This document shows, one piece after another, positions 30,650 through 32,643 of a stretch of 64,000 bases of DNA; position 1 is the stretch's first letter, and the number at the start of each line of letters is the position of its first letter. Under the pieces are notes generated by a model. It worked only from the letters and a program-made list of their open reading frames with translations. It had not been told where the DNA came from and searched no databases. This stretch comes from a bacterium. GTDB lineage: Bacteria > Patescibacteriota > Patescibacteriia > 2-12-FULL-60-25. The position numbers were made by a program, and so were the translations under genes. The stretch lies in the NCBI GenBank assembly GCA_021796435.1, contig JAJYXM010000016.1, positions 1,122,625 through 1,186,624 on the forward strand. Direction: 5' to 3'.

Positions 30650-30982
30650 TTAGCTATTCTGGTCCTCCAGGGGCTCTAGGTAGAAACGCTCTTCGTCAGT
30701 CAGGACTTTTTGCGCCTCTGCTGGCGGTACGTCCTCCAGGTAGATATCTTGCTGCAAAACATCCTGTTCGGAAGGTATTTCAGAAACTTGAGGCGAGAAA
30801 CCAGGTTCAGGCGAATAAGCTGCCAATTTTGCATGATCGGAGGGCGTTTCCTGCGGGCTGCCTGCCATAGCTTCGAACTGCTCCAAAGATACGATAACTA
30901 GTGGTTCGCGACCAGCTGGATCGGTCATGATGACAGGAACTCCCAATTTTCTGGCTGATTCTATGATTCGCTGCAATGACAT
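30650..30982 (-). CDS. Phd/YefM-like small protein, possibly an antitoxin
   Basis: With the ATG at 30982 the protein has 110 residues. The first 40 (MSLQRIIESARKLGVPVIMT, then PLVIVSLEQFEAMAG) look like the N-terminal fold of prevent-host-death antitoxins, in which a helix and a short sheet dimerise on DNA and LEQFEAM is a common end. The rest is acidic and probably unfolded, as in antitoxin C-termini that wrap a toxin. No toxin gene is adjacent, so it may be an orphan or a domesticated repressor. It has its own terminator. Confidence 0.5.
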   Translation of the reverse strand: MSLQRIIESARKLGVPVIMTDPAGREPLVIVSLEQFEAMAGSPQETPSDHAKLAAYSPEPGFSPQVSEIPSEQDVLQQDIYLEDVPPAEAQKVLTDEERFYLEPLEDQNS

Positions 30983-31098: not shown

Positions 31099-31127
31099 TT
31101 GACTCAATGGGCAGTTATTGCTAGCCT
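31099..31127 (+). promoter_or_regulatory. Candidate promoter of the 31130-31650 RNA
   Basis: TTGACT (31099-31104) and TAGCCT (31122-31127) are separated by 17 bases on the plus strand. The -10 box is weak (three of six bases), but the -35 and spacing are good and it points into the structured region. Confidence 0.4.
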
Positions 31128-31129
31128 GC

Positions 31130-31650
31130 CATCCAGGAGAGAAAAAGCTGTTAGGCGTGCAAGTTACCGATCGGGTAGCCCAAAGTCGATCAGCTGAACC
31201 GGTTTGGGTAGAGGTGCACTATGACGACCTTCGGGAGACGGGGGTGACTGAACACCACGGCCGAAGATGTGTTGTCGCGCTGAACCGACGTCGATTACGG
31301 TCGACGCCAGGTGGAGGAACCACGCAACCCGGATGCTCTTTACGGTGGACCGTAAATCAACCGGATTAAACCGGTCGAGAGGCTGCGCCGGCCGATCGAC
31401 TCTCCGCAATCTTGGGGACCGGCGGGGCATCCCTCGACACCCCCTCCCGAGACACCTGCCAGTCCCCGACTAACTTCGGAGAAAAAGCTACGCACCCGCC
31501 CCCTCCCGTAGCCAGCACCTCCGACCCCTCGGAGCTGTCCAGTATCGTAACGGAATGCAGCGATCCCCCGGTCGCCGTACGAACCGTTTCCTGGATGTCT
31601 CCGACCCTCTTCCGAGACCCCGCGTCGCTTGACCCGGGGTCTCTCTTTTT
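31130..31650 (+). ncRNA. Candidate large structured RNA of unknown class
   Basis: No convincing protein gene fills this stretch, but nested long-range helices can be drawn. They are 31130-31138 with 31589-31597 (9 bp perfect), 31163-31171 with 31544-31551 (8 bp, one bulge), 31211-31217 with 31515-31521 (7 bp perfect), 31232-31236 plus 31240-31246 with 31438-31449 (12 bp, one bulge), and 31331-31336 with 31427-31432. Local hairpins lie at 31289-31306, 31311-31323, 31339-31356 and 31487-31512. A terminator at 31614-31650 ends it, and a promoter-like pair precedes it. I tested it by eye for RNase P RNA, tmRNA, SRP RNA and group I intron signatures and found none. Function is unknown. Confidence 0.6.
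31614..31650 (+). terminator. Terminator of the candidate structured RNA
   Basis: GAGACCCC (31614-31621) pairs perfectly with GGGGTCTC (31636-31643) and is followed by TCTTTTT on the plus strand. No plus-strand protein gene ends here, so the terminator itself argues for a plus-strand noncoding transcript. Confidence 0.75.
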
Positions 31651-31654
31651 CTGC

Positions 31655-31683
31655 TTGACGGCCATGATGGATACTGGTTAGTT
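31655..31683 (+). promoter_or_regulatory. Promoter of the ADP-ribosylglycohydrolase gene
   Basis: TTGACG (31655-31660) and TTAGTT (31678-31683) are 17 bases apart. The box lies just after the RNA terminator and about 25 bases before the ATG at 31708, so this gene is its own transcription unit. Confidence 0.5.
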
Positions 31684-31707: not shown

Positions 31708-32643
31708 ATGAGGAACAGGAATACGGAGATGCTCCTCATGATCGCCATCGCCGATGCCTATGCCATGGCGACGGAATTCGTGGACACATCGCGTGATTTC
31801 TCGGTCATCCGCGACGCGCTTGAGTTCGAGCGTTACGTCAGACATCCCAAGCACCAGCAGTTCGCCGGTCAGTACACGGACGACACCGAGATGTCGTGCG
31901 CCAACGCACGCGTACTCATCGCCCATCCTCCGCCTTACGAACCGATAGAGTTTGCCCAAGCTTGGCTGGATGAATTCAACCGAGGTGGCAGGCGTAAAGG
32001 ATACGCGAAGGGCTTCCAGGCGATATTGGAGAGCGTAGCCGACGGCCGTGAGCTCCTCGCGCGTCTGAATCCGGTCTCCGAGAGCAACGGCGCATGTATG
32101 CGCGCCGTTCCCATCGGCGTTTTGCCGCGGATCGAAGACGTGCTCGAGGTAGCCACGCTCCAGGCCAAGATCACGCATGATACGCCGCCGGCGCTTTTCT
32201 CGGCGCGGGCCGTCGCACTCATGGCGCATTACGCGCTGCACGTCTCTAACACGTTCGACGGGCTGCAGCGATTCTTGCGCGACAACCTTCCGTCGGAGGA
32301 CAAGGCCTACTTTGATGAGCTGCGCCGGCCTTGGACGGGTCGCGTACACAAAGAGAACGGACGTCCATTATCGGTCTCGACCGTGCACGCCGCATATTTC
32401 GTCATCAGGACGAACAACAAGCTGATCCACATGTTGGATGACATCATCCAGTTCGGTGGCGATACGGATTCGGTCGCAGCCATCACCTGGGGCATCGCAT
32501 CCACCCTGCATCGTGAGGAGATACTCCCGGACTTCCTCTTCCGCGAGCTGGAAGGCGGCGATGCGCGGACCGGCTCGTTCTACTTGAGGGACTTAAGCTC
32601 CCAGCTCATTCGCGCCTATGCAGACCCCCTTGAGGAACCATAG
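31708..32643 (+). CDS. ADP-ribosylglycohydrolase (DraG/ARH-like)
   Basis: Enzymes of this all-helical family remove ADP-ribose from proteins, nucleic acids or small molecules using two metal ions. The first metal motif YTDDTEM is at 56-62, the substrate loop SNGACMRAVPIG at 126-137, and the second metal motif GGDTDS at 250-255, followed by AAITWGI. Length is 311 residues, normal for the family. GGAGGGAAAG precedes the ATG, and the unit has its own promoter and terminator. No ADP-ribosyltransferase gene is visible in the window, so the target is unknown. It may reverse a cellular modification or one made by another organism. Confidence 0.88.
   Translation: MRNRNTEMLLMIAIADAYAMATEFVDTSRDFSVIRDALEFERYVRHPKHQQFAGQYTDDTEMSCANARVLIAHPPPYEPIEFAQAWLDEFNRGGRRKGYAKGFQAILESVADGRELLARLNPVSESNGACMRAVPIGVLPRIEDVLEVATLQAKITHDTPPALFSARAVALMAHYALHVSNTFDGLQRFLRDNLPSEDKAYFDELRRPWTGRVHKENGRPLSVSTVHAAYFVIRTNNKLIHMLDDIIQFGGDTDSVAAITWGIASTLHREEILPDFLFRELEGGDARTGSFYLRDLSSQLIRAYADPLEEP

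Follow-up and report, generated by a model that had tools for sequence, protein, structure and literature searches.

Evidence for a stand-alone structured non-coding RNA gene near tuf in one genus of Patescibacteria

The window analysed here, a 64-kb stretch of DNA (64,000 nt), comes from a patescibacterium whose genome (G000; 1.6 Mb, 28 contigs) is rated 100% complete. Near tuf it contains an intergenic interval that very likely holds a structured RNA gene, which belongs to a single genus of these ultra-small bacteria and ranges from 330 to 520 nt across three species (Table 1). The gene order tuf, orf133, RNA region, ADP-ribosylglycohydrolase gene is common to the window genome and its two nearest relatives, listed as Patescibacteria Ess09-17 (G001) and Candidatus Uhrbacteria NC_groundwater_2005 (G002). 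orf133, present in 41 of 41 genomes of the family, encodes a protein whose N-terminus weakly resembles Phd/YefM antitoxins (E=0.011, below the cut-off). An earlier note on this DNA had described the interval as non-coding, with a plus-strand terminator and a promoter-like pair, and both signals were borne out by their recurrence at the corresponding position of two orthologs. All three copies (window, G002 and G003) finish with a terminator hairpin followed by a U-rich tail, and the motif TTGAC[A/T]-N17-TAGCNT lies directly 5′ of each of them, as TTGACA/TAGCTT in G002 and TTGACA/TAGCGT in G003. Within the 64-kb window the motif occurs once, as the promoter of the RNA. A generic scan for E. coli-type promoters misses it because its -10 element is TAGCNT, which is weak by the E. 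coli rule.

Table 1. Features of the RNA locus and its orthologs (positions are those of the window unless a contig is named)
Feature	Position	Strand	Description
orf133	30650..30982	-	divergent upstream neighbour beside tuf; small protein; synteny anchor
Promoter of the RNA	31099..31127	+	-35 TTGACT (31099-31104), 17-nt spacer, -10 TAGCCT (31122-31127)
RNA gene	31130..31650	+	start at about 31130-31134 inferred from the promoter; end past the terminator U-tract
Helix A, 5′ arm GGAGAG	31136..31141	+	pairs with 31400-31405 (CUCUCC); closes the 5′ domain; formed in 3/3 copies
Hairpin B	31146..31195	+	AGCUG 31146-31150 with CAGCU 31191-31195
Helix C	31198..31375	+	ACCGGUUU 31198-31205 with AAACCGGU 31368-31375
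Hairpin D	31376..31398	+	G002 form CGAUCGGC/GCCGAUCG
Conserved core CUCUCCGCAAUCUUGGGG	31400..31417	+	3′ arm of A, linker, start of E
Hairpin E	31413..31468	+	7 bp, 1x1 mismatch, 6 bp, C-rich apical loop
Hairpin F	31476..31524	+	C-rich loop 31493-31506 CACCCGCCCCCUCC; covariance model
Hairpin G	31529..31604	+	long stem, AUCCCCC loop 31563-31569
Intrinsic terminator	31614..31650	+	9 bp + 3 bp stem (31614-31643), then UCUCUUUUU
Candidate promoter of the downstream gene	31655..31683	+	TTGACG-N17-TTAGTT; inferred from sequence
ADP-ribosylglycohydrolase gene	31708..32643	+	Pfam PF03747, E=7.9e-35; neighbour, outside the RNA unit
G002 ortholog	L006 7595-7956	-	368 nt, syntenic
G003 ortholog	L140 1926-2256	+	331 nt, syntenic, upstream of orf133

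In G002 the region does not code for protein and runs collinear with the window; blocks of 77-81% identity alternate with stems that cannot be aligned. The third copy, in G003, was found by inspecting the sequence upstream of orf133, and its homology was judged by hand from synteny, promoter, core block, loop letters and fold. MAFFT misplaces G003 in three-way alignments, and three-way pair counts were therefore not trusted; a match between the window and G003 (GACUAACUU), first read as a linker, lies on opposite sides of hairpin F in the two copies and is probably due to chance. In G001 the RNA is missing and a 246-aa orphan ORF occupies its slot, with similarity to the other genomes limited to the 3′ linker and the terminator, which was kept although the RNA is absent. 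The terminator at which this ORF (L005 7910-8650, minus strand) stops was inherited from the RNA gene. Since the window genome, G002 and G003 carry the RNA and G001 does not, it is most simply explained as ancestral to the genus and then lost in G001, and it is therefore dispensable within the genus. A long inverted repeat, GTAGGGACATCCC...GGGATGTCCCTAC (L140, about 1858-1893), immediately precedes the RNA promoter in G003 alone and is possibly an operator or the terminator of a divergent transcript.

The distribution was followed further by several searches. Covariance model R2, run on 381 genomes of the class, matched the window genome and G002 only, and a pattern search for the core, CUCUCCGCAR(U/C)U..GGGG, found it absent from the remaining genomes of the family. 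Upstream of the orf133 homolog, G003 alone yielded the RNA, and none was seen in G023 and G025, inspected from other genera. G023 has at this place (L148 2166-2243) a tRNA-Phe called by ARAGORN with an unusual AAA anticodon, and tRNA-like pieces nearby look interrupted. Upstream of distant glycohydrolase relatives (L057-L062) there were no core motifs except one isolated hexamer, and a scan of viral contigs for the core 15-mer gave 36 matches, about as many as expected by chance, the two longest being related sequences without the remaining RNA. Models R1 and R2 both miss the G003 copy, because an extra hairpin separates its F and G; as they overlook even this copy, their silence beyond the genus speaks only against close relatives there.

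The glycohydrolase start codon follows the terminator by 65 nt on the same strand, and RNA and glycohydrolase gene occur together in the window and in G002, as would be expected if the RNA were a cis-acting leader or attenuator whose terminator read-through turns that gene on. We regard this as improbable, because G003 has the RNA while the glycohydrolase gene was not found in its genome, and G001 has the gene without the RNA. The G003 genome is 90% complete, which makes the absence of the gene there likely but not certain. The gene also has a separate promoter-like element after the terminator, with counterparts at the same place in G002 (TTGACC-17-TAGATT) and G001 (TTGACG-18-TTAGTT), and no conserved antiterminator competing with the terminator stem was found.

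Folding each copy domain by domain, without comparative input, gave the same plan in the window, G002 and G003: helix A, the core, hairpins E, F and G, and the terminator. Helix A takes the form GGA..GAGG:CCUC-UCC in G003. The core is 81% identical to that of G002 over 47 nt (blastn) and reads CUCUCCGCAGUUUGGGG in G003. The elements enclosed by A, namely B, C and D, are additions to the common plan in the window and G002; hairpin B is GCUGUCUG/CAGACAGC in G002 and missing from G003, and helix C, which in G002 is CCGG-UCACU-CCGG, encloses in the window an insertion of about 160 nt (31206-31367) found in this copy only. Hairpin G has its counterparts in GCGGCC-AAUCCCCC-GGCCGC of G002 and in CUGU-AUUCCCC-ACGG, set within a long stem, of G003.

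The RNA has preserved its shape through changes of sequence. In the window and G002, hairpin E shares one topology (7+1x1+6), and all 13 of its pairs are standard in both; 6 of the 13 are doubly changed, compared with 0 in controls in which the pairing partners were slid by 1-3 positions. For F and G, 90% of the cells in the model alignment are paired versus 31-42% when slid, and 8 pairs are doubly compensated versus 0-1 in the slid controls. The covariation among homologues that the earlier note had asked about is thus present in E and in F and G, with 14 doubly compensated pairs between the window and G002, in a family of three orthologs from one genus. A covariance model built from G002 alone found the window copy as its sole other match in 170 kb (E=0.027). 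Folding energies point in the same direction, being stronger relative to dinucleotide shuffles on the plus strand than on the minus strand in all three copies: G002 and G003 gave z of -6.0 and -7.1 on the plus strand (minus, -4.4 and -4.8), and the window copy -2.9 and -3.3 (minus, -2.3 and -2.6). The value for the window copy would not convince by itself, as the plus strand folds only slightly better than its reverse complement.

These compensating substitutions also bear on whether the interval could be a protein-gene remnant or code for protein on the minus strand, its structure arising by chance. Such a reading could point to the 99-aa frame that is open on the minus strand of the window (31366-31665), whose conserved translation the earlier note had considered as an argument against an RNA, and to the G001 orphan ORF, which sits in the same slot and ends at the same terminator. 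No frame is continuous between the orthologs, the similarity of the window and G002 being spread in short blocks over all six frames, and no conserved coding was seen. There is no Pfam match, for the G001 ORF either, and that ORF has no relative in 54 genomes. We therefore hold coding to be highly improbable. With its own promoter and terminator, compensatory base changes and no conserved reading frame, the locus is very likely a real, stand-alone gene for a structured non-coding RNA.

The shape that had drawn attention to the locus did not survive comparison. The earlier note had proposed a large new RNA class held by nested long-range helices and closed by a perfect 9-bp stem. Perfect pairing between 31130-31138 and 31589-31597 does exist in the window, but G002 retains only 5-6 bp of it and G003 about 3 bp, and a perfect 9-bp pairing arises somewhere in 48% of 521-nt shuffles (in 3% when at least 400 nt must be spanned). 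Its 3′ arm pairs locally within hairpin G in all three copies instead (CCAG/CUGG in the window and G002, AUAUUCG/CGAAUGU in G003), and its 5′ arm overlaps helix A, likewise kept in all three. The other long-range helices lie mostly inside the window-only insertion and have no counterpart. Since the closing stem is reduced and its arms belong to G and A, the long-range model was dismissed as a description of the conserved shape, though the window copy alone may adopt it as an alternative state. What stands of the claim is a structured RNA gene of unknown kind, with no Rfam match, in three species. Its size, fold and rank as a class do not stand, because what is conserved is a row of local hairpins, 330-370 nt in all, the window copy being larger owing to its insertion, and because an RNA found in a single genus is overstated as a new class. 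A hand-drawn long-range fold can thus flag a genuine RNA gene and yet misjudge its shape.

Known families do not account for the RNA. At the gathering threshold, Rfam 15 matched two tRNAs only in the whole window and left the RNA region unmatched, and the orthologs had no Rfam match at E<=1. A highly diverged universal RNA (RNase P RNA, tmRNA, SRP RNA or 6S) would agree with the size, and RF00169 located no SRP RNA elsewhere in the window genome. We judge it to be highly improbable as well, and the lack of the RNA in G001, which marks it as dispensable there, also speaks against it. The earlier note had seen by eye no likeness to RNase P RNA, tmRNA or SRP RNA, and none of the three matches the region (RF00169 at E<=10). 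RNase P RNA (RF00010, G000:C1:1266348-1266945, 598 nt, E=8.8e-27, 85.8 bits, below the cut-off yet full length) and tmRNA (RF00023, G000:C1:955626-956024, over the cut-off) sit elsewhere in the genome. The window copy has four chance-level matches only, the best of which (E=0.021) is on the minus strand. This is twister type P5 (RF02684, 31342-31406; 22.9 bits versus a cut-off of 37.6 bits), a sub-threshold likeness that was rejected, as it has a 4-nt loop in place of the conserved L4 loop and the orthologs have no match. As a separate observation, a search of this genome, rated complete, with RF00169 found no small-SRP RNA.

Besides the core, the most constant feature of the RNA is the C-rich apical loops of F and G. 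The F loop reads UACGCACCCGCCCCCUCC in the window, UACGCCCCCC in G002 and UACGUACCCCAUCCCCCUCC in G003, and can be aligned across all three; the G loop reads AUCCCCC, AAUCCCCC and AUUCCCC in the same order. Both loops are predicted to be unpaired with a probability of 0.98-1.0 in G002 and G003, and in the window copy they are open when the domains are folded locally, whereas its global fold has the F loop largely paired. Runs of five C are no more numerous than in dinucleotide shuffles. When the pairing energy of the loops with 74 guessed start regions of the window was compared with that of internal coding stretches, there was a slight preference for start regions with E (-9.0 vs -8.0) and F (-9.0 vs -8.3), and no difference with G; this preference is unspecific, as any C-rich sequence would show it.

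In Staphylococcus aureus RNAIII, the C-rich loops 7, 13 and 14 bind G-rich sequences of ribosome-binding sites (PMC2837412), and this precedent makes an antisense regulator the preferred working model. Transcription of the plus strand would start from a sigma-70-like promoter that ends at 31127 and run up to the terminator at 31614-31643, and the transcript would fold into a chain in which the 5′ domain closed by helix A is followed by E, F, G and the terminator. The C-rich loops (CCCCC(U)CC and AUYCCCC) would touch target mRNAs first, at their G-rich Shine-Dalgarno regions, and thereby repress translation, as the C-rich loops of RNAIII do, and the stems would hold the loops apart and exposed. 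If the stems were mere spacers exposing the loops, this would explain the free change of their letters. We assign a rough probability of 0.45 to the whole explanation, in which one Uhrbacteria-group genus has a stand-alone gene for a non-coding RNA that acts in trans as a regulator with C-rich loops; that it acts through pairing of these loops with ribosome-binding sites is a tentative proposal by analogy, somewhat short of even odds.

The C-rich loops may instead be protein sites and not antisense seeds, the RNA serving a protein (such as a C-binding one of the KH type) as scaffold or ligand, or forming a particle, either an RNP or one of RNA only. KH domains recognise C-rich sequences in single-stranded form, and the RNA is structured, exceeds the typical size of sRNAs and carries constant C-rich loops on variable stems. 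No partner gene is consistently linked to it, though, as the glycohydrolase gene is absent in G003 and the other neighbour, orf133, is family-wide whereas the RNA is limited to a genus; a scaffold is accordingly rather unlikely. Still less likely, in our estimate, is that the RNA is the founding member of a lineage-specific, mid-size structured RNA class in Patescibacteria with a role novel among RNAs, for example, a RNP or RNA-only scaffold around poly-C loops.

Under the antisense model the closest likeness is to RNAIII and to sRNAs with UCCC motifs, which likewise string hairpins together over about 500 nt, with C-rich sequence in several apical loops and an intrinsic terminator, and have a narrow, fast-evolving distribution. 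Unlike RNAIII, the RNA has no sequence or Rfam match to it, no agr system nearby and no conserved encoded peptide, and its targets are only hypothesised here. Its C-rich hairpin loops also resemble the anti-Shine-Dalgarno sequence CCUCCUCCC of Cuckoo-type sRNAs in alphaproteobacteria, which are much shorter and have fewer stems; a weak Rfam echo of suhB/mmgR at the terminator (E=2.1) is at chance level and does not support homology. OLE, ROOL and GOLLD are, like this RNA, structured non-coding RNAs that came from comparative genomics and whose role is unknown or partly known, but they are larger, with intricate long-range folds and a wider distribution, whereas the RNA described here has no Rfam match and a conserved part of local hairpins.

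Few RNA regulators have been described in Patescibacteria, and the literature searched describes no regulatory RNA from them. With its defined ends, its orthologs and a structure derived by comparison, the locus provides a concrete family, and it offers a direct test of whether these reduced genomes control translation through RNAs with C-rich loops.
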